Shown: positions 2 through 28,000, counted from the stretch's first letter. The stretch is 62,242 nt of DNA from a virus (IMGVR_UViG_3300027608_000031:1-62242), one strand, 5' to 3'. Translations and numbers: made by a program. Notes: generated by a model not told the origin, from the sequence alone.

Positions 2-208
2 CCGCAACCCGAGGGCGGCTCAAGGCGCGACTCTTTCTGCGCCCGCATGAGTGGGATGAAAAAGAAACTGACATCCGCAAAAACAGCGAACGACCCGAAT
101 TCTAGGATTAATAAAAGTCTTAGAGCATGGAACTGCGCTGAAGGCGGGTATGTGAACTCAGCAGACGGAATTGCCCAAAAGGGTAAAACCAAAGGAAGGA
201 TGTGCTGA
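2..208 (+). CDS. Partial small virion-associated protein with shared basic C-terminal tail
   Basis: The reading frame is open from the left edge, so the start is missing; 68 codons are visible. It contains FCARMSGMKKKLTS followed by NDPNSRINKSLRAWNC, a cysteine-flanked basic segment that I recall from small proteins of T4-like cyanophages and other aquatic phages (DUF6321-like). It ends in GGYVNSADGIAQKGKTKGRMC. The same ending recurs on the genes at 932, 1681 and 3457. The stop lies one base before the next start. The function is unknown; small size, basic charge and position in the late gene block suggest a minor virion or DNA-associated protein. Confidence 0.75.
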   Translation, partial: PQPEGGSRRDSFCARMSGMKKKLTSAKTANDPNSRINKSLRAWNCAEGGYVNSADGIAQKGKTKGRMC

Positions 209-209
209 T

Positions 210-401
210 ATGGAAGGCAATGAAATTAAAGCAATTGCTGACGGGGCTGCTCTAACAGTTACGTTCTCTGGCGTAATGGGTTGGATGACTCCAGTAGCCA
301 CGCTAGTTGGTAGCCTTTTGGGTATCGTGTGGATGTGTATTCGCATATACGAGACTGCAACAGTTCAAAAGCTGGTAAAGAAATATGCCAGCAGTAAGTG
401 A
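210..401 (+). CDS. Small membrane protein, holin-like
   Basis: This is a 63-residue protein. A short N-terminus is followed by a hydrophobic stretch around residues 13-40 (TFSGVMGWMTPVATLVGSLLGIVWMCIRI) that could be one long or two short membrane helices, then a basic tail with KLVKKYASSK. Size and layout fit small phage holins, but the true lysis cassette, with a 3TM holin and endolysin, lies at 11.9-14.2 kb, so this could be a second holin or an unrelated membrane protein. The ATG at 210 is preferred over the in-frame ATG at 171 because that one would overlap the upstream gene. Its end overlaps the next gene by 17 bases. Confidence 0.55.
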   Translation: MEGNEIKAIADGAALTVTFSGVMGWMTPVATLVGSLLGIVWMCIRIYETATVQKLVKKYASSK

Positions 402-921
402 GAAACAGAAGAAATTCATGGACGCGGTAGCCCACAACAAAGGGTTTGCCAAGAAAGTGGGTGTACCCCAATCTGTTGGCGCTGAGTTCAGTGACAAGAG
501 TAAGGGAATGAAATTTGGTTCTGGTGGCAGTGGCACTAGAGCAGATCGTCAAGTAGTAAACCAGCCAAAGACCGATCACGGTGCAGCGGCACTTTTTAAA
601 AAAGGTGGAAGTATGGCAAGCAAAATGAACCCCGGATTTATGGCAATGATGGCTAAAAAGAAGGACGCAAAGCCTTCAGCAATGGGCAAGCCAACAATGA
701 AGGCTGGCATGAGCACTGCTAAGGACGGCATGAAAAAAGCTACTCCTATGGCTGACATGGCAGGTATGAAAAAAGGCGGTATGCCCATGAAAATGAAAGA
801 CGGTAAAAAAGTACCTGCTTTTATGAACAAAGGCGGTATGGCTAAAGGTGGTGGTGTTGAGTCCAAGGGTAAAACCAAAGGCTCAATGATTAAAATGAAC
901 AGAGGCGGCAAAGCCTGCTAA
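385..921 (+). CDS. Met/Lys/Gly-rich conserved phage protein
   Basis: This protein has 178 residues. The N-terminal ~45 residues (SEKQKKFMDAVAHNKGFAKKVGVPQSVGAEFS) form a recognisable small domain of unknown function seen in many phages. The remainder is low complexity and very rich in Met, Lys and Gly, with repeated MKKGG, FKKGG and KGGMA elements. The end (ESKGKTKGSM, then GGKAC) is related to the basic tails of neighbouring proteins. It overlaps the end of the upstream membrane protein gene and is followed by another small virion-type gene. I infer a minor, disordered, possibly DNA-binding virion protein; no enzymatic motif is visible. Confidence 0.65.
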   Translation: MPAVSEKQKKFMDAVAHNKGFAKKVGVPQSVGAEFSDKSKGMKFGSGGSGTRADRQVVNQPKTDHGAAALFKKGGSMASKMNPGFMAMMAKKKDAKPSAMGKPTMKAGMSTAKDGMKKATPMADMAGMKKGGMPMKMKDGKKVPAFMNKGGMAKGGGVESKGKTKGSMIKMNRGGKAC

Positions 922-931
922 GGAGCACATC

Positions 932-1678
932 ATGGCAAGAGGAAAAGATTTAGCAGGATTAGCCGCTCTTGGAGCCTTGGGCATGATGCTGTCCAAAGGT
1001 AAAAAGGGCGCAGATCGTGATACTGATACCGGCGTTGATGTACAACCATCTTATGCCACTCGTGACCCACTTGAGGCCGCAAACAGTTCCCAAGATGCAA
1101 TGGATATTCGTGATTCATTGACTCGCGGTGCCCCCGGCACTTCGGAGACTGTTACCCCCAGCCGTAAGCCAACCGCTCCACGCGCACGCGCAACCGCTCC
1201 CAGTTCTAGATCTACTATTTCTGCTGACGATGAAGCTGGTATGAGTCGTGGCACTCGCCCCCGTGATCCCCGTAATGCTGAGGCTGGTATGAGTCGTGGT
1301 ACTCGTACAACTTCAATGGCTGGCGCTGGTCGTGGTGTAACTATGCCAACCCAACCACAAGCAAACAGTACGACTGAAGCGGGGATGCGTAACTATGTTC
1401 CACGTCGTACGCCACAAGCCAACAGCACTACCGAAGAAGGTATGCGTAACTATGTGTCTCGTGCCCCCACAGGCATGGAGCGTGATACTTCTGAAGTTGA
1501 CCGCGTTCGTAACCTCGCTGGCGCGTTTAATGTACCTATACGCCCTCGTGGTAGTGAAGACGGCTTCAAAAAAGGCGGCGCAGTCAAGAAGATGGCTTCT
1601 GGCGGCATGGCTTCCTCTGCTTCTAAACGCGCTGATGGTATTGCTCAAAAGGGTAAAACCCGTGGAAAGATGTGCTAA
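932..1678 (+). CDS. Repeat-containing protein with ADGIAQKGKTRGKMC tail
   Basis: This 248-residue protein has an N-terminal hydrophobic patch (LAGLAALGALGMMLS), a long disordered Arg/Ser/Thr/Pro-rich middle with two internal duplications (EAGMSRGTR twice; QANSTTE[AE]GMRNYV twice, residues ~105-180), then FKKGGAVKKMASGGMASSASKRADGIAQKGKTRGKMC split over the last 37 residues. The tail is shared with the genes at 2, 1681 and 3457. A GGAGCACATC segment before the ATG supplies the ribosome site. The function is unknown; the architecture suggests a membrane- or virion-anchored flexible linker with a basic terminus. Confidence 0.7.
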   Translation: MARGKDLAGLAALGALGMMLSKGKKGADRDTDTGVDVQPSYATRDPLEAANSSQDAMDIRDSLTRGAPGTSETVTPSRKPTAPRARATAPSSRSTISADDEAGMSRGTRPRDPRNAEAGMSRGTRTTSMAGAGRGVTMPTQPQANSTTEAGMRNYVPRRTPQANSTTEEGMRNYVSRAPTGMERDTSEVDRVRNLAGAFNVPIRPRGSEDGFKKGGAVKKMASGGMASSASKRADGIAQKGKTRGKMC

Positions 1679-1680
1679 TC

Positions 1681-1992
1681 ATGGCTGACATTAAATACAA
1701 AGACTCCACTCCGGTGGATGAGCCAATCCCCAAAGGGAAAGTAAAGGCTGTAGAACCCGGCAGTGGTATTCGCGTTGACGGTAAGCCTCTAAAGGCTGAA
1801 GGTTACGCTAAACCCCCAGCCGAACGTGCGGGTAGAAACCCAGCAGAAGGTTTTGCAAAGCCGCCGTCAAGCAATACAGAGACTAGCAAAACAAATGCTA
1901 TGGGTAACAACTACGCTAAAGGCGGTATGACTGCTTCTTCCCGCGCAGACGGATGTTGCGTTAAGGGTAAAACCCGTGGGAAGGTGTGCTAA
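1681..1992 (+). CDS. Small Pro/Lys-rich protein with shared basic tail
   Basis: This 103-residue protein has two imperfect repeats (GYAKPPAERAGRNP and GFAKPP) and ends in NYAKGGMTASSRADGCCVKGKTRGKVC, split here as AKGGMTASSRADG followed by GKTRGKVC. The IAQ of the other tails is replaced by CCV, giving three cysteines in all. The ATG at 1681 directly follows the upstream stop; an in-frame ATG at 1672 lies inside the previous gene and is less likely. The next start follows the stop with no gap, indicating translational coupling. The function is unknown. Confidence 0.65.
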   Translation: MADIKYKDSTPVDEPIPKGKVKAVEPGSGIRVDGKPLKAEGYAKPPAERAGRNPAEGFAKPPSSNTETSKTNAMGNNYAKGGMTASSRADGCCVKGKTRGKVC

Positions 1993-2280
1993 ATGATGTC
2001 AAGTCGCGGTATGGGCGCTATCAGCCGCTCAAAGATGCCCAAAGGCAAGAGAACTGCCCGAAGGGATGATACCGACTTCACACAGTACGCTGAAGGTGGC
2101 AAGACCAAGTCCAAAGTAAATGAGGCTGGTAACTACACCAAGCCAGAGTTACGCAAACGTATTTTTAACAGCGTCAAAGCTGCGGCAATCGTAGGTACTG
2201 GTGCAGGACAGTGGTCAGCACGCAAGGCTCAAGTTATGGCTAAACGCTATAAGGCCGCAGGTGGGGGTTACAGAGATTGA
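1993..2280 (+). CDS. Conserved protein with GQWSARKAQ motif
   Basis: This 95-residue basic protein's C-terminal half contains KPELRKRIFNSVKA, then GQWSARKAQVMAKRYKAAGGGYRD. I recall this motif from DUF5872-type proteins of phages and large algal viruses; the assignment is from memory. YAEGGKTKSK in the first half matches the AKGG/AEGG element of neighbouring proteins. Its stop overlaps a TTG start of the next gene, whose sequence looks like the other half of the same conserved module. Function is unknown; the charge suggests nucleic-acid association. Confidence 0.65.
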   Translation: MMSSRGMGAISRSKMPKGKRTARRDDTDFTQYAEGGKTKSKVNEAGNYTKPELRKRIFNSVKAAAIVGTGAGQWSARKAQVMAKRYKAAGGGYRD

Positions 2281-2510
2281 AAGCGCCACAACAGTCTTTA
2301 AAAAACTGGGGCGACCAAAAATGGAGAACCAAAAGTGGAAAACCGTCTAGTAAAACAGGTGAGCGCTACCTTCCAGAAGCTGCGATCAAAAGCCTCAGCG
2401 CTAGTGAGTATGCTGCAACAACGCGTGCGAAACGCGCTGGCAAAAAAGCCGGAAAACAATTCGTAGCACAACCCAAAACGATCGCAAAGAAAACAGCAGG
2501 ATTTAGATAA
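2277..2510 (+). CDS. Conserved basic protein, TTG start, partner of upstream gene
   Basis: This 77-residue protein is very rich in Lys and Arg. It starts at a TTG that overlaps the previous stop (TTGA); no in-frame ATG occurs early enough to preserve the conserved start SLKNWGDQKWRTKSGKPS. It continues with TGERYLPEAAIKSLSASEYAATTRAKRAGKK split over residues 26-56. Similar sequences stand next to, or fused with, the WSARKAQ-type domain encoded just upstream, so the pair looks like one module on two coupled genes. Its stop overlaps the next ATG (TAATG). Function is unknown. Confidence 0.65.
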   Translation: MKAPQQSLKNWGDQKWRTKSGKPSSKTGERYLPEAAIKSLSASEYAATTRAKRAGKKAGKQFVAQPKTIAKKTAGFR

Positions 2511-3454
2511 TGGCAAACACCTCCGGAGCGTCCGCATTTAACCTTGACCTATCTGAGTTGGTCGAGGAGGCGTTTGAACGCGCTGGTAGTGAAATGCGCA
2601 CTGGATATGACCTGCGTACTGCACGTCGTAGCCTCAACATCATGTTTGCTGACTGGGCAAACCGTGGCATCAATCTATGGACAATCGAGACAGGGTCTAT
2701 TACCCTAGTTCAGGGGCAGAACACGTACCCCTTACCAAACGATACGATCGACCTTCTTGAGCATTTGATTCGTACTGACGCAAACAGCACGTCTAATCAA
2801 GCCGACCTAACAATCACACGGATTAGCGTTAGCACCTACGCTACGATCCCAAACAAATTAACCCAAGCCAGACCTATTCAGGTTTGGATTCAGCGTTACA
2901 ACGGGCAGGCTAGTCCCATCTCTGCTACGCTGACTACAACTATTACAAGTACATCAGACACAATCGTGCTGAGTGATGTTACAGGTTTACCCGCAGCGGG
3001 GTTTATAAAGATTGATGATGAGATTATCAATTACGGGTATATCACTCAGAACACAAACGCCGTTAGTGGCACTCTATCTAGTTGCTTCCGTGGTCAGCAA
3101 AATACGATTGCTGTAGCGCACACGGCTGCGGCTACTGTGTACTGGCAACAAGTGCCAGCGGTAACCGTTTGGCCTACCCCCGATAACGTACAGCCATACA
3201 CATTTGTTTACTGGCGTCTACGCCGCACGCAGGACGCTGGTGGCGGTGTGAACATTATGGACGTACCGTTTAGATTTATCCCATGTATGGCGGCTGGTCT
3301 GTCGTACTACATCGCTGGCAAAGTACCGCAAGGTATGGAGCGTATTGGCATGTTGAAAGCTCAGTATGACGAGGCATGGGAACTGGCTGCGTATGAAGAC
3401 CATGAGAAGGCAGCTCTTCGGTTAGTTCCTAGACAGACCTACATTGGGAGGTAG
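2510..3454 (+). CDS. Putative head-to-tail connector / tail accessory protein
   Basis: This 314-residue protein starts LDLSELVEEAFERAGSEMRT, followed by DLRTARRSLNIMFADWANRG and LWTIETGSITLVQGQNTYPLP. This pattern is typical of podovirus neck proteins (P22 gp4 or T7 gp11-like; family placement is from memory). A helical N-terminal region precedes a beta-rich middle containing a Thr-rich insertion (residues ~145-175), and the C-terminus returns to helical repeats around YDEAWELAAYEDHEKAALRL. The start overlaps the previous stop as TAATG. Genomic position near a second adaptor-type gene at 4702 supports a role in closing the portal and joining the tail. Confidence 0.65.
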   Translation: MANTSGASAFNLDLSELVEEAFERAGSEMRTGYDLRTARRSLNIMFADWANRGINLWTIETGSITLVQGQNTYPLPNDTIDLLEHLIRTDANSTSNQADLTITRISVSTYATIPNKLTQARPIQVWIQRYNGQASPISATLTTTITSTSDTIVLSDVTGLPAAGFIKIDDEIINYGYITQNTNAVSGTLSSCFRGQQNTIAVAHTAAATVYWQQVPAVTVWPTPDNVQPYTFVYWRLRRTQDAGGGVNIMDVPFRFIPCMAAGLSYYIAGKVPQGMERIGMLKAQYDEAWELAAYEDHEKAALRLVPRQTYIGR

Positions 3455-3456
3455 TC

Positions 3457-3867
3457 GTGGCTAAAGATGATGATTCCGTAGCCTCTCGTTCTCGTGAATC
3501 GCTTGCAGATTCCGGTCCAAGGGCAATTCCTATAGACGAAGCGACTGGTCGTCCTAGGATGGTTCCTATAGATATGTCTCAAGTCCGAGAAGGCGTTATG
3601 TATATGCCTAGGTATTTGTCGGTTGACAAAGATAGTCAAGCCCTTGGGTCAAGACTTATGGGCACAAAGAAGTTAGGCAAAGATACGGCTTTGCAAGGTT
3701 ATTACGACGTTGATACAACAAATGATAAATTCAGCGGTGTAAAGAACCGCCGTGGCGGTGCTGGAGTTACTTTGATGCATAGTTTTGCCAAGGGTGGCAA
3801 GGTGACGGCTTCAACCCGTGCAGATGGGATTGCCCAGCGCGGAAAGACAAAAGGTAGGGTTATCTAA
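3457..3867 (+). CDS. Small protein with ADGIAQRGKTKGRVI tail, GTG start
   Basis: This 136-residue protein starts at GTG three bases after the previous stop, behind GGGAGGTAG, a strong ribosome site. The N-terminal part is acidic and disordered. The middle contains MVPIDMSQVREGVMYMPRYLS (split), perhaps a small folded core. The C-terminus reads FAKGGKVTASTRADG then IAQRGKTKGRVI, the fourth example of the shared tail; here the last residue is Ile rather than Cys. Function is unknown. Its position between two neck-like genes suggests a virion component. Confidence 0.65.
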   Translation: MAKDDDSVASRSRESLADSGPRAIPIDEATGRPRMVPIDMSQVREGVMYMPRYLSVDKDSQALGSRLMGTKKLGKDTALQGYYDVDTTNDKFSGVKNRRGGAGVTLMHSFAKGGKVTASTRADGIAQRGKTKGRVI

Positions 3868-4265: not shown

Positions 4266-4445
4266 ATGGACAAGAAAGACTTAAAGCAGGACAAGAAAAT
4301 GATTGCTGGTGCAGTGCACAAGCATGAGAAAAAGTTGCATCCCGGCAAGCCAATGACTAAGCTCAAAAAGGGCGGCCCTACTTCTGAAGACCGTATGCGT
4401 CAAGGACGTAACATGTCCCGTGCAACGAATCAGGGGAGCAAGTAA
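4266..4445 (+). CDS. Small basic protein (59 residues)
   Basis: An ATG behind TAGGAGTTAAAA opens a 59-residue frame. The product starts MDKKDLKQDKKMIAGAVHKHE and continues with KKLHPGKPMTKLKKGG, a highly basic helix-forming sequence, then ends RMRQGRNMSRATNQGSK. The stop overlaps the next ATG as TAATG, the coupling used throughout this operon, which supports its being a gene despite its size. It carries the LKKGG element common to its neighbours. Function is unknown. Confidence 0.7.
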   Translation: MDKKDLKQDKKMIAGAVHKHEKKLHPGKPMTKLKKGGPTSEDRMRQGRNMSRATNQGSK

Positions 4446-4705
4446 TGGCTACTTTTAGCAAAAAAATTATGGGTAAAGAAGTTGGTGACGCCAGCGTTTA
4501 TGCCCAGCCACACGACATGTCTGGTAAAGCACTTAAAGCAGGACTACCTACAGAGACTGGTGCTCAGTGCATGACAGAGATGAATCCGTCTATTAGCGGT
4601 ATCAGCAAAGGCAACTATGCTCCAGTTAACCCATATGGTGTTGGCGTGATGCGTGGATACGGCGCTGCAACCAAAGGGCGCAAAATTAGCGGGAAAATGG
4701 GATGA
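4445..4705 (+). CDS. Small conserved virion-region protein
   Basis: This 86-residue protein contains FSKKIMGKEVGDASVYAQPHD and PYGVGVMRGYGAATKGRKISGKMG, split here over the two ends. The basic end (KGRKISGKMG) resembles the KGKTRGKM ending of nearby proteins but lacks the ADGIAQ part. Translationally coupled on both sides: TAATG at its start, and a 4-base ATGA overlap with the next gene at its end. No motif of known function is visible. Confidence 0.6.
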   Translation: MATFSKKIMGKEVGDASVYAQPHDMSGKALKAGLPTETGAQCMTEMNPSISGISKGNYAPVNPYGVGVMRGYGAATKGRKISGKMG

Positions 4706-14181: not shown

Positions 14182-16518
14182 ATGCCATTACAGAAACTTG
14201 CATTTAGACCCGGCGTTAACCGCGAAGGCACTACCCTCTCCAACGAGGGTGGCTATTTTGACTGCGACAAAATTCGTTTCCGTTCCGGCTTCCCTGAGAA
14301 AATTGGTGGCTGGCAAAAAGACGCTGGGCTTGCATCCACTACTTGCCCAACAAGTACATTTGTTTCTAGCGGAACATCTACTCAGGCTACCGTTACTAAC
14401 GGAGTGTTTTGGGGTGTAACCAAGGGTTTGTGGAACTGGATTAACTTAACGGGCTATAACTTACTTGGCATTGGTACAAGCCTTAAATACTACATACAAA
14501 ACTCTTCTGGCGGCACGTACAACGATGTGACTCCTATCCGTGTAACCACTTCTGCTGGCGCAGTCACTTTTGCCGCAACATCTGGCTCTACCACTCTTGT
14601 AGTTACTAACAATTCACATGGCGCACAGGCGGGAGATTTTGTTTGTTTTACTGGCGCTGTAACCCTTGGCGGAGCCATTGATGCAACTGTTCTTAACAGA
14701 GAGTATCAAGTTCAAACCGTTACAAGTAACAATACATACACAATTACTTCTTCTGTTGCTGCTAACGCTAGTGATATAGGTAATGGCGGCGGTTCTGTTA
14801 TAGGTAACTATCAATTAACCACTGGTTTCACAACATTCACGCTAGGTACGGGCTGGGGCGCTGGTGGCTGGGGCGGCTCGGTTGGGCCAAGTGCTGCAAC
14901 TGCGTTGACTGCAAGCATTGCTGACGGTACTACTACTGCGGCTGTTTCTGTAACGTCTACAACAGGTTTTGCGGCAAGTGGGTTAATCTACATTGGTTCT
15001 GAGGGTATCTCTTACCCATCAACAACGGGAACTACATTTGCCTCGCCTGTAATCCGTGGATTTAACACTACAGCGACAGCACACACTAACGGGGATGCCG
15101 TCTATCAATACCCTGCTACGGCTACTGGCTGGGGTTCTCCTGCAACTACAGGTATTGGTATTCAGTTGCGCCTGTGGAGCCAATCTAATTACGGAGAAGA
15201 TTTAGTTATTAACCCCCGTGGTGGAGCGATGTATTACTGGGCTAATAACGCTAGTGTTAACGTCTATGACCGTTGCCAAATTATTAAAGCATCTACAGGC
15301 ATAGTTACCAAAGCAGGCACAATAACGCCAGACACAACTTGCCCTTCGTTTGCTAATTTTGTGCTGATTTCAGACTCTTCACGTTTTACTTTTGCGTTTG
15401 GAACTAACGACCCAACCGGAACATACGCAACAACCGCACAAGACCCAATGCAAGTGCGCTGGTCTGACCAAAACAGCGTAGCCACATGGACACCATCTGT
15501 TACTAATCAAGCGGGCGGTATAAAGTTAAGCCACGGTTCACAGATTATTACTGCTATACAGACGCGCCAAGAAATCTTGGTCCTTACTGATGCCGCGCTT
15601 TACTCGTTCCAGTACCTCGGAGCGCCGTATGTTTGGGGTAATCAACTTCTTGGTGACAATATTTCTGTCGCTGGACCTAACGTAATAGCAGTGGTAAACA
15701 ATGTCACTTATTGGATGGGTACAGATAAATTCTACGTTTACTCTGGACGGATTGAAACCCTACCTTGTTCGTTGCGCCAATTTGTATTTGACAACATTAA
15801 CTTGACTGAATCGTATCAATTCTGTGTTGGCACTAGCGAGGGTTACAGCGAAGTGTGGTGGTTCTACTGCTCTATGACAGGTACTACGTCTACTGGGGGA
15901 AACAGCACAGGCACACCAGCATCACCTAATCGTATGCTCGACCGCTACGTCATCTATAACCATTTAGAAAAAGTTTGGTACTACGGTACTTGGAACTGCA
16001 CTAGCGCCCGCCCACGTACTGCTTGGCTAGACAGCCCGCTACGCGCTCAACCAATTGCTGGAATTGCGTACAACTCTAGTAATGTGTATCAAAACGCAGA
16101 TGTGGTCTACCATGAAACAACTGTGGACAACAACGAGACTAGCACGCCCACTGCTATTGATGCTTATGTTCAATCCTCGGACTTTGATATTGGGGACGGT
16201 CATAATTTTGGTTTTGTTTGGAGACTTATTCCAGACATTACCTTTGATAGTTCCACAGTGGTAGCACCTTCTGTTGACTTTACTGTAAGACCGCGTGCCT
16301 TCCCCGGTTCAAGCTACGGCTCGTCTGGCATCAGAGGGGTTACAAGTTCGCAATCGTTTGCAAGTACAAATGTCTATAACGTGCAGTTGTTTACTGAACA
16401 GGTGTATGTACGTATTCGCGGTAGGCAGATGGCGTTTAAGATTTCATCTAGCACTCTTGGTGTTCAGTGGCAGTTGGGTATCCCACGTATTGATATTCGT
16501 CCTGACGGCAGGAGATAA
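14182..16518 (+). CDS. Tail nozzle / tail tubular protein (T7 gp12, P22 gp10-like)
   Basis: This 778-residue protein starts KLAFRPGVNREGTTLSNEGG, then YFDCDKIRFRSGFPEKIGGW, the hallmark N-terminus of podovirus nozzle proteins. The body is Thr/Ser/Gly-rich beta structure with an inserted immunoglobulin-like repeat region (~120-310), then ILVLTDAALYSFQYLGAPYVWG and YWMGTDKFYVYSG, typical propeller-blade strands. The length is close to T7 gp12 (794). Placement after lysis genes is unusual but the strand and neighbours fit a late structural gene. It forms the DNA exit channel below the adaptor. Confidence 0.75.
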   Translation: MPLQKLAFRPGVNREGTTLSNEGGYFDCDKIRFRSGFPEKIGGWQKDAGLASTTCPTSTFVSSGTSTQATVTNGVFWGVTKGLWNWINLTGYNLLGIGTSLKYYIQNSSGGTYNDVTPIRVTTSAGAVTFAATSGSTTLVVTNNSHGAQAGDFVCFTGAVTLGGAIDATVLNREYQVQTVTSNNTYTITSSVAANASDIGNGGGSVIGNYQLTTGFTTFTLGTGWGAGGWGGSVGPSAATALTASIADGTTTAAVSVTSTTGFAASGLIYIGSEGISYPSTTGTTFASPVIRGFNTTATAHTNGDAVYQYPATATGWGSPATTGIGIQLRLWSQSNYGEDLVINPRGGAMYYWANNASVNVYDRCQIIKASTGIVTKAGTITPDTTCPSFANFVLISDSSRFTFAFGTNDPTGTYATTAQDPMQVRWSDQNSVATWTPSVTNQAGGIKLSHGSQIITAIQTRQEILVLTDAALYSFQYLGAPYVWGNQLLGDNISVAGPNVIAVVNNVTYWMGTDKFYVYSGRIETLPCSLRQFVFDNINLTESYQFCVGTSEGYSEVWWFYCSMTGTTSTGGNSTGTPASPNRMLDRYVIYNHLEKVWYYGTWNCTSARPRTAWLDSPLRAQPIAGIAYNSSNVYQNADVVYHETTVDNNETSTPTAIDAYVQSSDFDIGDGHNFGFVWRLIPDITFDSSTVVAPSVDFTVRPRAFPGSSYGSSGIRGVTSSQSFASTNVYNVQLFTEQVYVRIRGRQMAFKISSSTLGVQWQLGIPRIDIRPDGRR

Positions 16519-16889: not shown

Positions 16890-19169
16890 ATGAGCCTACA
16901 ACTAGCTGCCCAACATTTAGCCGATAAAGGTCGTGGACCTGATACTACGCTTGTTCACATGTCGAACAAAGAGGTCAAGAGCCTCAATGACTTGGCTATG
17001 GCGCATGGTGGTCAACTAACTATTAACCCACAGACTGGGCTACCCGAAGCTGGCTTTCTTTCTGCTATCTTGCCTCTGGTCGCAGGCGCGGCTCTTGGTC
17101 CCGCTGGTTTTGGTTTGACCGCTATGCAAGCTGGTTTGCTTGTTGGTGCAGGGTCGTATGCGTTAAATCCTAAAGGGGGTTTGATGGGTGGCTTGTCAGC
17201 AGGTCTTGGCGGTTATGGTGGCGCTGGGTTAGGGGCGGGGTTGTCAGGTCTTGCTACTTCTGAAGCTGGAGCCTCTGTTCAAAACGTTGCTAATGAAGGT
17301 GCTCAACAAGAACTAGCAAGACAAACTGCGCAACAACAGGCACAGCAAGCAATAATAAACGCGTCTCCCGAAGCGGCTGGATTTGCTACCCCATCAGCAT
17401 TACCATCAGCAGACCAGCTTGCAACGATAAAAAGCAATATCGTAAATGAACAACTGTTGGCTAATCCACCGCCTACAGGGTTTGACGCAGTGAAACAAGG
17501 CGCTAAGTCTTTATTTACTGACCCAACAGCAGATAAATTCAAAGCCTTGGGTGGTGGAAGCTACTCTGGTTTAGCCAGAATGGGGTTAGCGGCTGCGGCT
17601 CCTGCGGCGGGCGAACAGGCAAAATTTACACCTCCCCCTACATCTGCTACCGCTGGAAAACAAGTTGTACCGCATTACAAGTTCAGTCCCGGTATGCAAA
17701 CACCTACACCTACTGCCAGTCCAACTGGCGTAGAAAACGTATATTTCAAGCCACAGTACACAGCCCTTTCTGATGAAGAGGCTAAACAGATGTACCCCGG
17801 TTATGGCGCGTATGTTCCCCCCACTACCGCCGCAGATGGTGGACTTATGGGCTACACAGGTGGCGGCCCAGTTGAGCAGATGTCCACTAACGCCATGATG
17901 GGGGTAAACACAATGTACCCGATGGCAAATATTGCCCCATTTGGTGGCGGCGCGATGAACATGATGTCAGGCGGGCAAAGAATGGCGGATGGCGGTGTGT
18001 CTTATGACCCCAAGACCCAACGATACTCAAAAGGGATTTCCGAAGCCCTTAGACCAGAAAACCGTGATGTAAACATCTACAACGATACAGGTGGTATCGG
18101 TTCTGGCGGCGGTCCAGCTTCCGCCTCATCGTCCTCATCTTCTACTGGTTCTCCGACCGGTTCGACGATAGGTGATATAGGCTACGCCATATCTAATCAG
18201 TCTATTTCTCCTATGGCAGCCGCGATTGCACAAGCGGCAATGGATGCCATGTCTCCAACAAGTAACACCTCGGCTAACGCAGTAAATGGTATGGACGCGG
18301 CAAGTGATGCCGCTTCTGCCGCTTCTGCTGCTGCCGCAGCCGCTGACGCTAGTGGTGGTGCCCCCGGTATGGGTGGTGGCTCTGATGCTTCTTCTGGCGA
18401 TAGTGGAGCCGCAGGTGGTGGCGGCGGTGGCGACGCTGGTGGTGAAGCTCGTGGTGGCTTGTCCCCACGCTTTACACACCATATGGCTGACGGCGGTATT
18501 TCCGGTAGAGGTCATCTTGATTTAAATATTCCACTTGACTTTGGTAACGGAAGCAGTGGTGGCTTTGGCGGCGGTGGCGCTAATGGTTACAGTGCCGCAG
18601 GCTCTGGTGGCGGAAGTCAGACTGGGTTCACTGGGCAGAACAATACTGCTATTGGCGCAAAAGGCGGAGCCGGGTTATCACCACTTTTTAATACCGGTCA
18701 AACTCCTTTTGACAACACATTCGAAGGCGATACGTTCCAACCTCAAGGTACACGCGCTTTTGGTGGTAACCCACAGCAAATGATAGGGTTGCTATCTTCT
18801 TTGATGCAAGGCCAGCAGTCGGGTAACGCATCTGCTCCACAACCTATGCAGATGGCTTCGGGAGGTATCTCAGATGCGGGATATAACTTGGGTGGCTATT
18901 CTGATGGTGGGCGCTTACTTCGCGGGCCGGGAGATGGCGTATCTGATTCAATTCCTGCCGTGATTGGCAAAAGACAACCTGCTCGTTTGGCTGATGGTGA
19001 GTTCGTAGTCCCAGCCCGTATCGTGTCAGAGTTGGGTAATGGCTCAACCGAGGCTGGCGCACGCAAACTGTACGCCATGATGGACAGAATCCAAGCGGCT
19101 CGTGGTAAGACTGTGGGTAAAGGTAGAGTGGCAAAAAATAGTCGGTCTGAGAAGTATCTACCTGCGTAG
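16890..19169 (+). CDS. Internal virion-type protein with ADGG motifs
   Basis: This 759-residue protein begins MSLQLAAQHLADKGRGPDTT then LVHMSNKEVKSLNDLAMAHGG, a conserved N-terminus, followed by a Gly/Ala hydrophobic stretch (~50-115) that could insert into membrane. The middle is low complexity (poly-Ser, poly-Ala, poly-Gly). AADGG, MADGG, MASGG and GGISGRG elements are scattered through it. The C-terminal ~80 residues (GPGDGVSDSIPAVIGKRQPA, then LADGEFVVPARIVSELGNGS) form a domain common to podovirus virion proteins. It is probably ejected with the genome; the exact role is unknown. Confidence 0.6.
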   Translation: MSLQLAAQHLADKGRGPDTTLVHMSNKEVKSLNDLAMAHGGQLTINPQTGLPEAGFLSAILPLVAGAALGPAGFGLTAMQAGLLVGAGSYALNPKGGLMGGLSAGLGGYGGAGLGAGLSGLATSEAGASVQNVANEGAQQELARQTAQQQAQQAIINASPEAAGFATPSALPSADQLATIKSNIVNEQLLANPPPTGFDAVKQGAKSLFTDPTADKFKALGGGSYSGLARMGLAAAAPAAGEQAKFTPPPTSATAGKQVVPHYKFSPGMQTPTPTASPTGVENVYFKPQYTALSDEEAKQMYPGYGAYVPPTTAADGGLMGYTGGGPVEQMSTNAMMGVNTMYPMANIAPFGGGAMNMMSGGQRMADGGVSYDPKTQRYSKGISEALRPENRDVNIYNDTGGIGSGGGPASASSSSSSTGSPTGSTIGDIGYAISNQSISPMAAAIAQAAMDAMSPTSNTSANAVNGMDAASDAASAASAAAAAADASGGAPGMGGGSDASSGDSGAAGGGGGGDAGGEARGGLSPRFTHHMADGGISGRGHLDLNIPLDFGNGSSGGFGGGGANGYSAAGSGGGSQTGFTGQNNTAIGAKGGAGLSPLFNTGQTPFDNTFEGDTFQPQGTRAFGGNPQQMIGLLSSLMQGQQSGNASAPQPMQMASGGISDAGYNLGGYSDGGRLLRGPGDGVSDSIPAVIGKRQPARLADGEFVVPARIVSELGNGSTEAGARKLYAMMDRIQAARGKTVGKGRVAKNSRSEKYLPA

Positions 19170-19171
19170 AC

Positions 19172-19579
19172 ATGCCACTTCACCATGTCCACCCTAACTA
19201 TCTGCCCAATGTATGGCCTGTTGCTTTACCGTTGCTAAAGAAGGCAATGGACTTAGAGCCGGGGTCGCATAACGAGCAGTTTATTGAGTACAGCATCCGT
19301 ACAGGTAAGACACACTTGTTGGTGTGGGAAGAGCCTGATGAGGGCATTACTGGTGCATGTACGATTGAATTTATTGACTACCCGATGGAGCGCGTAGCGC
19401 ATGTAAACCTGATGGGTGGCAAAGGGATTGTTAGAGACTATGTGTTTGATGAGGCCAAAAACTTCATGCGACTCAATGGTGCCAAAAAAGCTCAGTGCTG
19501 GGCAAGGGGCACACTGGTTGATATGTACAAGAAAATGGGTATGGAAAACACCCACCAAGTAATGAGGGTTGATCTATGA
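19172..19579 (+). CDS. GNAT-fold protein, T7 gp13-like assembly factor
   Basis: This 135-residue protein has the strand/helix order of an acetyltransferase: THLLVWEEPDEGITGACTIEF (split), VNLMGGKGIVRDYVFDEAKNFMRLNG (split), and WARGTLVDMYKKMGMENTHQVM. A clear acetyl-CoA loop is absent, so it may be non-catalytic. T7 gp13, a GNAT-like protein needed for internal core assembly, sits in the same relative place before the internal virion genes, which suggests an analogous role. It overlaps the next gene by 4 bases (ATGA). Confidence 0.6.
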   Translation: MPLHHVHPNYLPNVWPVALPLLKKAMDLEPGSHNEQFIEYSIRTGKTHLLVWEEPDEGITGACTIEFIDYPMERVAHVNLMGGKGIVRDYVFDEAKNFMRLNGAKKAQCWARGTLVDMYKKMGMENTHQVMRVDL

Positions 19580-22014
19580 GAACAAGTTATTCACGCCGTG
19601 AACTCTACGCATTTGGCGAGCCGCTTGGGGATAGCGCCACCTATTTAAAAGCCGATGGCGGTCTCATTCTTGGTGATGGAGGCGGGGGTGGCGGCGGTTC
19701 ACAACCTGCATCGTCTACTACACAAACCCAAGACTTACCTGATTGGGCGAAGCCGTATGCGCAAGACGTACTGTCTAAGGGTAAGGCAGTAACTGACCTT
19801 GACCAAAATCCATACCAACCCTATGGCGGTGAGCGTATTGCTGGGTTTGACCCGATGCAACAACAATCGTTCCAAGGCGCAAGGGATATGAGAGTTGCGC
19901 CTCAAATTGGTCAGGCTACTGCTGCATCGGTCGGTGCGGGTTTGGGTGGGTTTGATGTAGCTGGTCAGGCTAATCAGTATGGATTCCAGAATCAAGTAGG
20001 TGGGTACATGAACCCCTACTTGCAGATGTCTTTGGCTCCTCAAATTGCTGAAGCCAACCGTGCGTACGACATTACTGGTACTAGACAACAGTCTGCGGCT
20101 ACTCAAGCAGGTGCATTTGGTGGCTCACGTGAAGCAATCATGGCGGCTGAAAACGAACGCAACCGCAATACAGGTATCAATCAGATTGTTGGTCAAGGCT
20201 ACAACACCGCGTTTACTAACGCACAGAACCAGTACAACCAGAACTTGCAGAATCAACTTGCAGGTTACGGCATGGCTAATCAAGCCGCTGGTCAGTTGGG
20301 TAACTTAGGGCAGAGCCAGTATCAGCAGGGCATGGGCATCAACGCCTTGCAAAACCAATACGGTGCGCAACAGCAAGCCCAGCAACAAAGAGGTCTGGAC
20401 ACTGCATACCAAGACTTCCTCACACAGAAGAACTATCCATACCAACAACTCAGTTACATGTCTAACTTGGTTCGTGGTACCCCAATGGGCATGAACACGC
20501 AGTCGCAGGTCTATCAAGCACCTCCAAGTACTATGGGTCAGCTTGCTGGTCTGGGTATGGGTGCCTATGGTCTAAGCAGAATGGCTGAGGGTGGCTTGGC
20601 GTTTGGTGAAGGCGGGGACATTTCTGAAAAAATGAATGACCCTGCGGCTATGGCGGCACAGGTTGACAAGTTGTCAGATGAGCAACTCCAAGCAATTATT
20701 CAGAACCCTACAACACAGGTTGAGTTAGTAGCCGCCCAACAAGAACTTGCCATGCGTGCATCCGAGCGTGGTGGTATGGCAGCGGCGTATAACCAGTTAC
20801 CCCAACAACAGCAACAAGGCGTAGTTCAAGCCGCTAATGGCGGCATCCTTGCGTTTGCAGATGGTGACTTAATTACAGACCCACAATTTGGTGGCTCAAT
20901 TGGTACATACGAAACACCTAAAAAACTTCCTATGAGTGAAGTGCAAAAAATAGTTAGTGATTTAAAAGACCAAGGAAAGACTGTAGGGCTTTCAGATGTG
21001 CAAGACATTATGTATGGTAAATACGTTGTAGATAAGCCAACAGCTCCGGTAGCTAAACCAACGACTTCGGTTAGTGAACCATACAACGCCGCTACTGCAA
21101 CACGTCGCGTGGACTTTGAAAGTAAAGACAAACCAAAAGTTAGCCCACAAATCTTCTCTGGCATTACTCAGTTGTCCAAGGATAGTGGCGTACCCGCTGT
21201 TTCTTTAATGGATGAGTACACCAAAATGCGCAACATGCTCAAAGCCGAGAGCAAGGGCGACATGGACACATTGAACAAGATGCTGGAAAAATCCGCCGGA
21301 CGTTCAAAAGAAATTAAAGACAAAGGCTTTGGTAAAGCACTGGCTGAGTTTGGTTTTCAAATGGCGGCTAATGCCGCTGAACCCGGTCAAGCGGGTAACA
21401 AAGGTATCTTTGGTGTAATACGAAGTGCCGCAAAAGCATCTCCAACACTTGCCGCATCGGTTGCTAAGACTAATGAGTTGGCTCAAGCCGCAGATGACAA
21501 CCAGCAAAAACTTGCGATTGCTATGCAACAGTTCCAAATGGCGCAACGTAAGGGTGATAACGCTACAGCCCTAGGCTGGGCAACACAAGTACGTCAACTA
21601 CAGCAAGTGGACAAACAAATCGCAGTACAGCGTGAACAACTTGACGTACAACGTCAACAATACGCCTCACAAGCTGGCCTCGGTGCCGCACAACTGGCAC
21701 AGAAAGAACGTCAGTTTAGTTCTCTCATGGACTACCGCAACAAAGCCGCAGACGCTCAAGGATTTGCGGCCAAAGCACGCATGAATGATGTGCGACGTAA
21801 AGCCACGCTTGACTTTGATAGCGCCAACAAGCGTAAAGAAGCGGAACTCATACAACAGTATGGTCCTATTCAGGGTAAATACCAATATAACCAAATCCGC
21901 AACAACTACATCAATGATGTAATGCAATCTACGCGTGACCAACGTGGGGATATGGCTTCCGCAACAGGCGGTGGGGATACAAAATCGTATTTTGATCTTA
22001 TGAACATGGAATAA
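19576..22014 (+). CDS. Internal virion / DNA-ejection protein
   Basis: This 812-residue protein has an N-terminal Gly run, then DLPDWAKPYAQDVLSKGKAV and YGGERIAGFDPMQQQSF, a conserved motif of podovirus internal virion proteins. Residues ~110-290 are Gln/Asn/Gly-rich helical repeats (NQYNQNLQNQLAGYGMANQA). RMAEGGLAFGEGG and AANGGILAFADGD give two more ADGG-type elements. The C-terminal third is a long Gln-rich coiled coil (~640-760). It is likely part of the ejected core that spans the periplasm. Coupled to the gp13-like gene. Confidence 0.6.
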   Translation: MRTSYSRRELYAFGEPLGDSATYLKADGGLILGDGGGGGGGSQPASSTTQTQDLPDWAKPYAQDVLSKGKAVTDLDQNPYQPYGGERIAGFDPMQQQSFQGARDMRVAPQIGQATAASVGAGLGGFDVAGQANQYGFQNQVGGYMNPYLQMSLAPQIAEANRAYDITGTRQQSAATQAGAFGGSREAIMAAENERNRNTGINQIVGQGYNTAFTNAQNQYNQNLQNQLAGYGMANQAAGQLGNLGQSQYQQGMGINALQNQYGAQQQAQQQRGLDTAYQDFLTQKNYPYQQLSYMSNLVRGTPMGMNTQSQVYQAPPSTMGQLAGLGMGAYGLSRMAEGGLAFGEGGDISEKMNDPAAMAAQVDKLSDEQLQAIIQNPTTQVELVAAQQELAMRASERGGMAAAYNQLPQQQQQGVVQAANGGILAFADGDLITDPQFGGSIGTYETPKKLPMSEVQKIVSDLKDQGKTVGLSDVQDIMYGKYVVDKPTAPVAKPTTSVSEPYNAATATRRVDFESKDKPKVSPQIFSGITQLSKDSGVPAVSLMDEYTKMRNMLKAESKGDMDTLNKMLEKSAGRSKEIKDKGFGKALAEFGFQMAANAAEPGQAGNKGIFGVIRSAAKASPTLAASVAKTNELAQAADDNQQKLAIAMQQFQMAQRKGDNATALGWATQVRQLQQVDKQIAVQREQLDVQRQQYASQAGLGAAQLAQKERQFSSLMDYRNKAADAQGFAAKARMNDVRRKATLDFDSANKRKEAELIQQYGPIQGKYQYNQIRNNYINDVMQSTRDQRGDMASATGGGDTKSYFDLMNME

Positions 22015-22026
22015 CGCGGAGCAAAC

Positions 22027-25000
22027 ATGGTTATTACTCTGCCTAAAGTCGGGAACGTTGAGTTCCCTGACAACTTGTCTCCAGAACAACTCGACGTCAT
22101 GTTGAATAATTTGGCTAGGAAGTATGACTTCAGCCTTCCCAAACCTGATGTTGGTTTAGGTGAGATTGGTAAACGCGGTGCCATGCGTGGTTTGGGAGAA
22201 ATTGGTATTGCTATAGGCGATACCCTTCCCGGTATGGTAGGCAGTGCCATAGGTGCAAACGACTACGCTGAACGCCAAATGAAGGAAGCGGAAGCAAGCC
22301 GCCAACTTCTACAGCAGAAATACCCAACGCGTTTTAAATCATATAAAGACATCAACAGCCCGTTTGAGGCACTTGAGTACGGCGTTGAAACTTTGGGTGA
22401 ACTTACACCTACTCTTGCTACTTCAATAGTTCCCGGTGTAGGGGGCAGTGTGTTGGGCGGGCGCTTGGCTGGCGGCGCGGCTTTCAAGGCGGCTACTGCC
22501 GCTGGCGTTCCTACCCGTGCAGGTCTAGCTGGTGTTGAGACTGCCGCAAAAGCTGGTGCACAAAAGGGTATGTATGGTGGCGTGTTCATGGGTTCATTTG
22601 CTCAAAACGCACCCGAAGTATTTGAGAATATTTATCAAGAAACTGGCAAGTTTGAACCCGGTGTTGCCGCCCTAGCAGGTGGCTTCAGTGCCGTGTTGGA
22701 CTCTGTGTTGCCCGTTGGTGTTCTTAACTCGCTGGGTAGTTACGGCAAACTAAAAGTCATTGAGCAAATGGCTAAAGAGTCTGGTGCCGCACCAAAAGTT
22801 TGGAAATATCTTGGCAAAGAAGTTAGCAAGTCTGCCGCTACTGAAGGTCTTACCGAGAGCGCACAAGAAGCCATAAGCGCATATGCCGCACAAGTTGCTG
22901 GCAGTACAAAAGGTTTGCTCGACCCTGAGAACGTACAAAAGTACAAGGAAGCGTTTGTCAAAGGTGCTGTGGGTGGTGCTGGCTTTGGAATTCCGGGTGG
23001 CATAGCCGCTGGTCGCACAGCCAAGAAAGATTACTCAAACACGCAAGAAGCCAAAGAAGCGTTGAATCAGTTAGCCGCACAAGAAGAAGCGGCACGACTG
23101 CAACCTACTGGCTTGCAAAACCAAATCGAAGGACAGTTCCCAACAGCGGGCAATACGCAAGCTGATATGGAAGCCGCCCTTGCGGAGAACGATGCACGCA
23201 AAGCGCGTGAGATTGAAATCAATGCCTTGCAAGCCCGCATGGATGAGCAACGTCCCGGTTCACGAGCCTACGCTGACTTAGAAGACGCAATTAAAAAAGC
23301 CAAGGCTAAAGACGCTGACGAAAATGCGGCTAAAGCGTCAGAGAGCGCGTTTGCTACTGCCAAGCCAACACCCGGTACGGGCGGCATGTTTATGCCCGGA
23401 GTTGAGAAGCAACGTGTTGAGAACAAAATTAGCCAAGAGCAAGGTATGCGTGGGTTTGCCTTTGGCGACATGGGTGCACAGAACGCACCGAAAGACCCAG
23501 TGACAACACAAGTGCTCAAAGCCTTGCGTATATCTGACCGCTCACAACTTGGTTTGGATTTACTGGGTACCGACATGGCTACGCCCGAAGGCGTGCGCAA
23601 ATTTATACAGACAATGGAAGACCCACAAAAGACGGGCACCATTAACGTCAATGAAGATAACTATCAAAAAGTACTTGACAGCCTATACGCTGACGGTCGT
23701 GGTGGTGAAGTCGAAGCCGCCCGTGCGGAGTTACAAGCGGAGCCTATCTCTGAGAAAACACAGAAGCAACAATCAGCAACGCGTCAATTCGCCTTTGGAG
23801 ATACCAATGCTGGACAACCTAACACCCCAACAGATAGAGCAAGCACTAGCGTGGCTCCATCACCCGATCAAGAAAGCGCCGCCGCAGGAGTTGGAGCACC
23901 TACAGGAGATGGAGTGGTTCTTACTAAGCCGGATGCTGGACTGCCTGTTGTCAGAAAAGCTGAACAGTCCGTTGCAGTAGAAGACCAAAATGCGGCTCCT
24001 GTTGCTACCACTACTACTGATACTGCTCCTCCTGTTGTATCTGCTAAGAGACGAAAGACTACTCCTGTCAAGGCTACTGAAATTGCCCCTGCCGAAACGG
24101 TGGAAGCACAGGATATTGCTAAGGTTAATAAAACTATAAAGTTTGGTGAAGACCTCAAGATTGCCGCTGAGAAATTAGGTCGCACTGCATCCCTCAAAGG
24201 GATGACTGAACTTGCCAAAGACGCCCACGCTTATTTCAGCAAGGTTCTACCTGAGTTGGCGCTTAAAGCGATTGCTAACGACTTGGTGTATCAGCCTACT
24301 GCCTATCGCAATTCCAAAATGAAGGCGTTCAAGGGCGACCCCGAGATGACATTCGGCACACAAGCCGAGGCTGAGTTCTTCAAAGGACAAGGTGGTATAC
24401 ACGCTAAGAACGCCGCACAGTGGGTGCGTCAGAACCTGTCGCCCGAAGCAATCGCATTCATGGATAAGCAGATTGCCCTGTACGAAAAAGAGAACGCCAG
24501 TTCTCAAGTGCACTACTCCAGAATTGATAAACAGCAAGGGGTCAAGAAAGCGACTAAGAAGCAGTTAGCGGCTGAGGCTAAAGAAGCCGCCGCAGACAAG
24601 AAGAAAGTTTCTGTACAGAAGACGATTGATGACATCTACCTTGATGACGCAATTGAGACTTCTTACGATGACTTTATAAACAGAGGACGCGGTGAGGGAT
24701 ACTTTGCATCGCCTGAGATTGCCGCCCTGCATGGCGAGGCGCATCCAGTTGTCCTACACATGTTGGAGCGGGGTGATGTTGCAGGTGCTCTACAAGCTCT
24801 TGCAGATTCCGGTTCTTCTGGTTTGGTACAACGTATTGCTGGTTCTTTGGTTAAGTACTTAGGTGATGTGAAATTGGCGGTGGGCGAAGCCCGCTACGAC
24901 CCAAAGACAAACACTATCTACTTGCCTGCAAACGCCAGCGAGTACGAGATTTTGCATGAGGCCGCTCACGCCGCACTATCACATGTTTTGGCAAACCCAT

Positions 25001-28000
25001 CACATCCGATCACCCGGAAGTTAAACAAACTCTTTGAGCAAATCAAGGGTGATATTGAAGGCGCGTATGGCGCTACAGACTTGCAAGAGTTTGCCGCTGA
25101 AATGTGGAGTAACGAAGTCTTTCGCACCCGCTTAAAGGAAATGCGCACTGAGTCCCCTAACCTGTCAATGTGGGACAAGATTGTTAACGTCCTACGTAAA
25201 CTGATGGGTTACGAGCCAAAGCAAACAAGTGTGGTAGATGCAGTTGACCAGATGCTCAGTGCGATTATGGGTGCACCTCCTGCCGCACGCTACGGCGAGT
25301 CCATGTATGCGCAGTCCATCCACAAACCCAATGTGGCACAGCAGATGATGACTGGTATGGGTAATATCATTTCCAACCAGCCCGCCATGAACAGTGAACG
25401 CGCTGTGAAGTTTCTTGCCGCTACAGAACGCATGGGAATTAGTTTCCGCGAGGCTACTCAACGCTTCCTGAACTTGTCTGCTCTGGGTGAAGTTGGTGAA
25501 AAGATATTGGGTAAAGACTCAATGGACTTCGCCCGCTCTGTGGATGGCATGATTGGTTACCGTGAAGAGTTGCGTGCCAAACTAAAGCCTATTGCTGACC
25601 GTCTAAACAAATACCGTCAGAACGCTAACTATGACGCATGGTCACGCCTTGTGCATGAATCGTCACGCTTGGACGTAAATCCAGAGGCTCCTATTAGCCA
25701 GTACAAGGGCGCACCTGAGAGAGAAGCAGCCCATCGTCAATTCTCTGCTGAGTTCAACAAACTCAATGACGAAGAAAAGCAGTTGTACCGTGACACATTC
25801 GGTGCATACCGTGGCTTGTTCAAAGAGTTGAAGGGGTCGTTGTATAGCAGTCTGAAGGAAACTTTCCCTGATGAGCAAGCGGCGCTAAGTGCGTACAACA
25901 AGATCATTGACCAAATCACGAAGATGGGCATTGACCACTACGTGCCTTTGTACCGTCAGGGTACTTACTGGTTGACCTACACCGACAAGACTAACGATGC
26001 TGTGTCTGAGTTGTATAACAGCCAAGCTGAACGTGACTTTGCACGCCGCAAGTTGGAAGCAGAAGGCAATACAAACTTTGATGAGTTCTCCCGCATTGAC
26101 CAGTTCACCGTGAAGAATGTTCCACGTGGAACTATGGCGGCTCAGATTGTGAAGATCATGCGTGAAGGCAACGCCGATGATGAGGCTGTCAATAAGTTCT
26201 TGCAGTTAATCGTTGCCGCTATGCCCGAGGCTAGTTTGCTCAAGTCTTTCCAAACACGTAAGGGTACGCTTGGTTATGAGAACGATGTTGCCTTGGCATT
26301 TGGTAATGTGACTCAGAACGTGACCCGCCAGTTGTCCTTGATGCGCTACGGTGATCGTATGCGCCGCTTGGTTAGCAACATGAAAGAAACTGCCGCAGGA
26401 CTACGTGGGCAGAATCAAGACCGTGCTATTGAATTGATTAACGAGTTTGAAGCACGCCAAGAATACGCCATGAACCCCAAGGTATCTGATTGGGCACGCT
26501 ACGCAAGTACTGGCGCGTTCTACTTCAACTTGGCTGGTAACGCATCGTCTGCCGTAGTCAACACGTTGCAAACTCCTATGATTGTCTACCCGCTTTTGGG
26601 TGGTAAGTATGGTTGGAAAGACTCAGGACTTGCATTGTTGGCGGCGTTGAAGTTGTATAGAACTAGCGGTGCCAAGCGCGAAGTAATTGATATTAACGGC
26701 AACAAGTCCATGCAAGATAGTTGGTTGGAAGTCGGCCTATCTATCGACAACACGGTCAGTATGGGCAAAGCCCCGCAGTATGCCGCCTTGATGCAACGAC
26801 TCAAAGACCTTGGGTTCTTACAAACATCAACAGCTTATGACGCGTTGGATGTAAACGATAGGCCCGGGAAAGCGATTGATAAGACTTCTAACCTAGCGCA
26901 CAAAACTGCGGTTATTTCCACATACATGTTCCACCATGCCGAGCGTATGAACCGTGAAATCACGGCAGTTGCCGCCTATGAGTTGGAGATGGGACGCCTC
27001 AAGAATAACAAGAAGTTGTCCGATGCCGAGAAGCAAGCACAAGCGATTGAAGAAGCCATCAAAATGGTTACCTTTGCGCATGGTGCTGGTCATACTGAAT
27101 CTGGGCCCAGCATTGGTCATTCAGACATAGGTAAAGTTCTTACTGTGTTTAAGCGGTTTGGCTTCACCATGTACTACATGTTGTTTAACACCATGAATCG
27201 TGCGCTGCCAGTTCAAGGTGCCACAGGACAACAACTTGAGGAAATACAAGCCGCCCGTCGTCAGTTGTTAGGCATATACGGCACTGCCGCATTGTTTGCT
27301 GGTGCTAAGGGTTTACCCATGTATTGGATTATGGAAGCCGCCTACAACGCGCTCAATGATGACGACGAGGATGACTTTGATACAGTCATGCGTAAATATC
27401 TTGGTGAGTTTGCGTTTAAGGGCCCAGTCAACTACATCACGAACCTTGGTATTGCTGACCGTGTGGGTTGGACTGACTTAATCTACCGCGAAAACAAGGG
27501 TGGCAAAGCAGACGCTAGTGCGTTGAGCCAAATTACCGAGGCGATACTGGGCGCACCATATGCCATAGTAAACAACATGTTCCGTGCGGCTGAACTTGCC
27601 AATGATGGTCACATGGAGCGTGCCATCGAGACTGCCCTACCTATTGCGCTACGCAACGTGCTCAAGGGTGTCCGCTACGCCACCGAGGGTGTAAATACTC
27701 TACGTGGAGACCCAGTGATGGGGGATGTGAATGGATACAACGCAGCGTTGCAGGTCTTAGGTTTCGCACCTGCTGACTTGTTGGCACAATATGAGATTAA
27801 CGCCACCGCTAAAAAGATGGGCGATGTGATTACTAAGGAAGAGCAGTCCTTGCTCAAGAAGTACTACGTTGCCCAGCGTGAAGGTGACTTTGAGCGTGCA
27901 GATATGTTGGAAGAAAAACTATTTAAGTTGGGCGATAAGTACCCTGAGTTGAAGATAACTGCCAACACGCTCAAAAAGTCTGTAACAGCACGAGACAGAA

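Follow-up and report, generated by a model that had tools for sequence, protein, structure and literature searches.

The 62,242-nucleotide viral stretch IMGVR_UViG_3300027608_000031:1-62242 (the window, meaning the whole of it) encodes, downstream of its head genes, small proteins with unrelated bodies that finish in the same basic C-terminal peptide, here called the tail. The evidence from the window and its relatives gives good support to the view that this tail is a discrete address tag that acts at the protein level; its destination, we infer, is probably the interior of the assembling head. Such an ending had been seen in the original prediction on the genes that stop at 208, 1678, 1992 and 3867, and a six-frame search of the 62 kb bears this out, recovering exactly four copies, each 3-4 residues before a stop codon, with no match in 200 base-shuffles of the window. 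The tails read WNCAEGGYVNSADGIAQKGKTKGRMC (208), MASGGMASSASKRADGIAQKGKTRGKMC (1678), NYAKGGMTASSRADGCCVKGKTRGKVC (1992) and SFAKGGKVTASTRADGIAQRGKTKGRVI (3867), with the consensus GG…SxRADG[IC]A[QV][KR]GKT[KR]G[KR][MV][CI], and their DNA differs at wobble positions as had been claimed, pairs of tails being identical at 28-39 of 54 nucleotides. In what follows, class-1 tails are exactly C-terminal, class-2 tails are followed by 11-20 extra residues, and pI is the isoelectric point. The genes concerned are:

2-208, + strand: truncated DUF6321 (PF19846 / phrog_727-like) gene, of which the 3' part is present, with a class-1 tail at about 131-208; the full open reading frame (ORF) is found in the relative L084 (5384-5713).
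385-921, + strand: basic protein (pI 10.4, N-terminus MPAVSEKQKKFM, phrog_16759), whose relatives form a 70-member class-2 cluster.
932-1678, + strand: basic low-complexity protein (pI 10.5), with a class-1 tail at about 1589-1678.
1681-1992, + strand: small basic protein (first ATG at 1681), with a class-1 tail at about 1909-1992.
3457-3867, + strand: small protein whose body is beta-hairpin-like, with a class-1 tail at about 3784-3867.

The first of these genes is cut by the window edge, and the complete ORF in L084 encodes a DUF6321 protein. In the scanned set A4, one DUF6321 member matches the DUF6321 profile at 2.1e-17; the window fragment scores only 0.071 because of the truncation. For 385-921 a related segment and a terminal Cys had been proposed. 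Both are there (GKTKG at 868-882, a GGKAC end), but the copy, GGGVESKGKTKGSMIKMNRGGKAC, is degenerate and internal, and a clear class-2 tail is found only in the relatives, with the consensus ADGVASKGKTKGTMIKMKxGGxAC. The N-terminal element of this protein has matches among phage proteins with a virion-structural annotation.

Relatives were collected from IMG/VR with the 3457-3867 protein as query, giving more than 400 sequences whose matches lay mostly in the tail; as this set was selected on the tail, the scan was repeated with the capsid protein alone. The loci are mutually related, so all counts are of non-independent events. In 81 sequences the motif was matched 257 times, on the gene strand in 256 cases, with 173 matches exactly C-terminal and about 73 belonging to the second class and mostly ending in Cys. 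Every capsid-found locus with at least 5 kb downstream contains the tail (35/35, 1-4 copies each), and every tail-found locus with enough upstream sequence encodes this capsid protein (21/21, 82-90% identity). A tail profile also matched 18/18 long records (40-67 kb, window included), in one cluster per genome save for a few weak partial matches. The tail is lineage-wide: the phages in question, a large uncultured group from water, carry it on 1 to 5 proteins each. The genome collection returned four stray metagenome-bin contigs only, which leaves prophages unsupported, and a tblastn search of the tailed proteins and the tail against annotated phages gave no match, probably through length and filtering. 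Two contigs of cellular assignment carry tails: an 84-kb contig (L166) binned with a Chitinophagales metagenome-assembled genome, which has this capsid protein too (86%) and is a possible host hint or binning error, and the end of a Patulibacter contig (L165:8342-8586), where the GC content drops and a tail is fused to an acyltransferase ORF, probably at a chimeric contig end.

Within 221 class-1 tails, D-14, G-13, G-8 and T-6 (counted back from the C-terminus) are invariant and K-7 nearly so; the tail is thus no random, unconserved low-complexity sequence, one of the outcomes that were to have refuted the original prediction. Synonymous codons at identical residues are shared in 46% of cases within a genome and 43% between genomes, against 36% expected. 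The small excess within genomes argues that the tails are not recent copies of one another, and that protein rather than DNA has been conserved. A Gly/Lys/Arg-rich extension that binds nucleic acid and holds basic proteins on phage DNA, in or outside the head and with no specific protein partner, would agree with the net charge of the tail (about +4.4), with the basic bodies and with the retention of at least one Arg at -5/-3, where KK occurs in 6/221 tails. We consider this unlikely, since charge alone leaves the four invariant residues and the I/C at -12 unexplained and no match was found to a known DNA-binding motif in Pfam or PDB. In PDB sequence searches the capsid protein and the profiles of the tail and of phrog_17747 (see below) likewise gave no match. 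Cys residues at -12 and -1 are almost mutually exclusive, occurring together in 1/221 tails, that of window gene 1681-1992 (P 3e-12), a pattern that in these sequences would reflect either two coexisting subtypes (I-12/C-1 and C-12/V-1) or a compensating pair. Cys ends only 91/221 class-1 tails (41%), and terminal-Cys anchoring was rejected as a general feature on this count; a membrane anchor, one of the functions first suggested for the tail, finds no support either, as the tail has no hydrophobic stretch.

The bodies that precede the tail have little in common. By blastp, 328 unique tailed proteins form about 108 unrelated body clusters (an approximate number, as many bodies are of low complexity), and in an alignment of 107 representatives the tail alone aligns, with a mean column identity of 8% over whole proteins. 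Known domains are nearly absent among the tailed proteins scanned. The bodies, basic in the window, are rich in K, A, G, S, E, R, P and D, and Cys makes up only 21 of their 26,962 residues. Two cases show the tail being gained, lost or exchanged as a unit. DUF6321 proteins usually stop at RAWNC or RAWKC; 100 are untailed and 11 are tailed beyond that point, and the tail of 2-208 is appended beyond the RAWNC end at which untailed relatives stop. The body of 3457-3867 precedes a tail in the window, L004, L005, L007 and L054, and in L006, L010, L012, L014 and L043 it is embedded in the phrog_17747 protein, where that protein's C-terminal domain stands in place of a tail. In the window this alternative carrier is:

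1993-2280, + strand: phrog_17747 protein, SRGMG... followed by a GNYTKP...GQWSARKAQ...GGGY domain.

These swaps identify the tail as a discrete part. The phrog_17747 protein is present as a single copy per locus in 83 loci, and its C-terminal half is predicted to form a helix-loop-helix (pLDDT, the predicted local distance difference test, of about 80-88); Foldseek gave no PDB match, and homologues came from uncultured phages only. Its NYTKP...GGGY domain also occurs inside a 1022-residue 'ParB/Sulfiredoxin' protein of an uncultured phage (A0A6J5PCY7), which suggests that it is a second address-like domain. Members of the L164/L176/L190 family keep the same N-terminus and tail around an exchanged middle, and L177 has the same kind of tailed body with a different C-terminus. 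One swapped middle in this family (L164, L176-L196) resembled an ADP-ribosyltransferase by eye; for such a T4 Alt-like cargo in L176/L164 there was no Pfam match and the structure model (pLDDT 40) was unusable, so we do not claim it. An N-terminal basic-aromatic-GG motif, KKxKRFDxGG (loci L004-L167), is found in 36/86 long tailed proteins and 5/1106 other genes. That a mobile C-terminal module might have spread by recombination within the cassette, with no strong function, is compatible with a tail that sits on many bodies and can be lost; its near-invariant core despite synonymous divergence, and its presence in every tested genome, make this explanation extremely improbable.

The final codons of the tail carry a further signal, which had been missed in the earlier description and is new here. 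Gly -4 is encoded by GGA or GGG in 153/216 class-1 tails (71%), compared with 8/71 at the same Gly in class 2 (11%) and 10/216 at Gly -8 (5%; P 2e-19 and 3e-51), the codon at -3 is AAG, AGG or CGG, and the following gene begins at the stop of the tail gene in the window and in most examples read. An example from the window is:

189-208, + strand: AAA GGA AGG ATG TGC TGA (KGRMC and stop), with GGAAGG as the putative Shine-Dalgarno sequence for the gene starting at 210.

From these codon statistics, the last four tail codons seem also to provide the following gene with its Shine-Dalgarno site. Translation of that gene would then partly dictate the [KR]M[CV] end, and the extreme C-terminus would be doubly constrained. 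The same observations could be taken to mean that the tail matters chiefly at the level of RNA or translation (as a ribosome-binding site, or as a device for translational coupling or termination serving the next gene), with the peptide as by-product. This is very unlikely, given that the codons of the core from -16 to -6 are ordinary ones, chosen among synonyms almost independently, and that class-2 tails, 11-20 residues before the stop, retain the same core.

The position of the tailed genes is equally constant. The window is a podovirus-like genome with terminase (53820), portal (55395) and GroES-like (58008) genes followed by the head genes, and on the 3' side of the capsid gene come a cement-like protein (from 61853), a gap of about 0.5 kb, the tailed cassette, the adaptor gene at 2510 and, as far as 28086, ejection-type proteins. 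The window does not close on itself: between the cement gene at its end and the DUF6321 gene at its start roughly 0.5 kb is missing, a gap that L084 bridges. In loci holding both genes, 80/80 tails lie between the capsid and adaptor genes. The neighbours that bear on the tail are:

60808-61719, + strand: major capsid protein (Phage_capsid_4), which strictly accompanies the tail in genomes and bounds the tail cluster on the left.
2510-3454, + strand: adaptor protein (SU10_adaptor, weak match), the right limit of the tail cluster in 36 capsid-found loci with both genes.
58480-59475, + strand: acidic protein in scaffold position (pI 5.0, net charge -13), a putative scaffold.
2277-2510, + strand: basic phrog_14910 protein, 81-90% identical in 9/10 tailed genomes compared (no match in G008) and also found in HMO-2011-type phages.
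4445-4705, + strand: small protein ending RGYGAATKGRKISGKMG, another C-terminal element, vaguely tail-like, on one protein per genome.

The tailed proteins of the window are basic (pI 9.6-10.5), whereas the capsid, putative scaffold, portal and adaptor proteins are acidic. The tape-measure-like protein 16890-19169 also has the GG elements that abound in the tailed bodies. ADGG/AKGG elements had been proposed to lie inside the large internal virion proteins; this is true of 16890-19169 and 19576-22014 and untrue of 14182-16518 and 22027-28086. Protein 16890-19169 has a tail-like end, RGKTVGKG, which was considered as a tail copy and rejected, as it is unconserved in relatives. The 2019-residue product of 22027-28086 matches DarB-like antirestriction proteins (phrog_10089, 6e-66) and is a large polyvalent protein, possibly injected.

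An address need not lead to the virion. The tail might instead direct proteins to a host complex, to the membrane at lysis or to a phage assembly body, the cassette being a late host-takeover or lysis-helper set. The fast turnover and variable, accessory-like content of the cassette, which includes a small protein with one transmembrane segment, are in keeping with such a role, as is the resemblance of some bodies to variable effector domains between constant ends. We nevertheless regard it as quite unlikely, because the tails are held strictly within the capsid-adaptor interval, have no hydrophobic anchor and end in Cys in only a minority of cases.

We therefore favour an address within the head, on the grounds of gene position, of small, basic and variable proteins beside an acidic frame, of GG elements shared with a tape-measure-like protein, and of parallels with T4 and encapsulins. 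A tag of about 18-28 residues, appended to small proteins, for the most part basic and disordered, of a fast-changing cassette between the capsid/cement and adaptor genes, would be read through its core SxRADG[IC]AQ[RK]GKT[KR]G by one shared phage partner. This partner would most likely lie inside the assembling head, as scaffold, capsid inner wall or portal region, and the product of 58480-59475 is a candidate for it. Unrelated tagged proteins would thereby travel in the virion, perhaps to be delivered to the host, the tag working much like the T4 capsid-targeting sequence or the cargo-loading peptides of encapsulins, while its last four codons would provide a ribosome-binding site for the gene that follows. 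The common partner or destination first suggested for the tail fits the roughly 108 bodies, the lineage-wide presence, the head-cluster location and the module swaps, although the partner itself is a supposition; of the functions then listed, virion docking or packaging fares best, its grounds being where the genes lie, the basic nature of the proteins (pI about 10) and the T4 analogy. Taken jointly, address tag, single head-interior partner, virion carriage and ribosome-binding last codons make a proposal that we judge evenly balanced between right and wrong. We lean slightly against its more general form, a C-terminal cargo code of this podovirus lineage, in which a head-recognised peptide of two subtypes, translationally wired, would load 1-5 exchangeable unrelated proteins per phage from more than 100 cargo families.

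Several observations weigh against an address within the head. The nearest cultured relatives, with capsid proteins 62-70% identical, lack the tail, except for Planktothrix phage Pag-Yong1; the head itself thus does not require it. No copy is present anywhere in the complete records of HTVC023P, HTVC027P, DSL-LC04, CRP-901, QDWS535, HMO-2011 and Caulobacter phage RW. In some tailed proteins the motif stands 11-20 residues before the stop, and the one-transmembrane protein of the cassette means that position alone is no proof of virion proteins. The T4 sequence, moreover, is N-terminal and cleaved, and no prohead protease was recognised here in the head module with Pfam or PHROGs. Should the tail nonetheless be a head-loading signal, a search for it would yield candidates for virion cargo or ejected proteins in the hundreds, with no recognisable domain, in an abundant aquatic lineage without close isolates, and the tail would supply a short C-terminal label by which chosen proteins could be loaded into phage particles. 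It offers a testable case of a stable address on fast-changing phage cargo.

A text search of the literature gave no match to the tail strings, and no description of the tail was found in the published papers searched. Among annotated relatives, Pag-Yong1 encodes a divergent tail (UMO75986.1, ...GGMIGRDGCAKRGRTKGRFI, E 4e-5) in the same interval, differing in that it has a single copy and a capsid protein 70% identical. The RGxGAATKGxxxRGPMA end of window gene 4445-4705 is likewise a Gly/Arg-rich extreme C-terminus from the same gene region and differs in marking one protein per genome in this lineage, although Pelagibacter phage HTVC023P (L169) has RGxGAAxRGxxFxG ends on two different proteins; homology with the tail is not established, the profile comparison being not significant (probability 3%). 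T4 and encapsulins offer close functional parallels. The internal proteins of T4 are basic and divergent or variable, with sequences like the capsid-targeting sequence, the short tag common to the basic, fast-changing, unrelated proteins IPI, IPII, IPIII and Alt of one phage (PMC9026906). The tail shares with it the marking of several unrelated proteins; the T4 tag, however, is N-terminal, about 10 residues long and cleaved by gp21, while the tail is longer and C-terminal, and because of this position we do not file it as a T4 capsid-targeting sequence and propose a functional likeness at most. Encapsulins, HK97-fold shells, use C-terminal cargo peptides, those of Family 1 docking unrelated cargo inside the shell (PMC8346489). 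They are cellular compartments with enzyme cargo; the tail resembles their peptides in its C-terminal place on unrelated proteins whose genes lie next to that of the shell.
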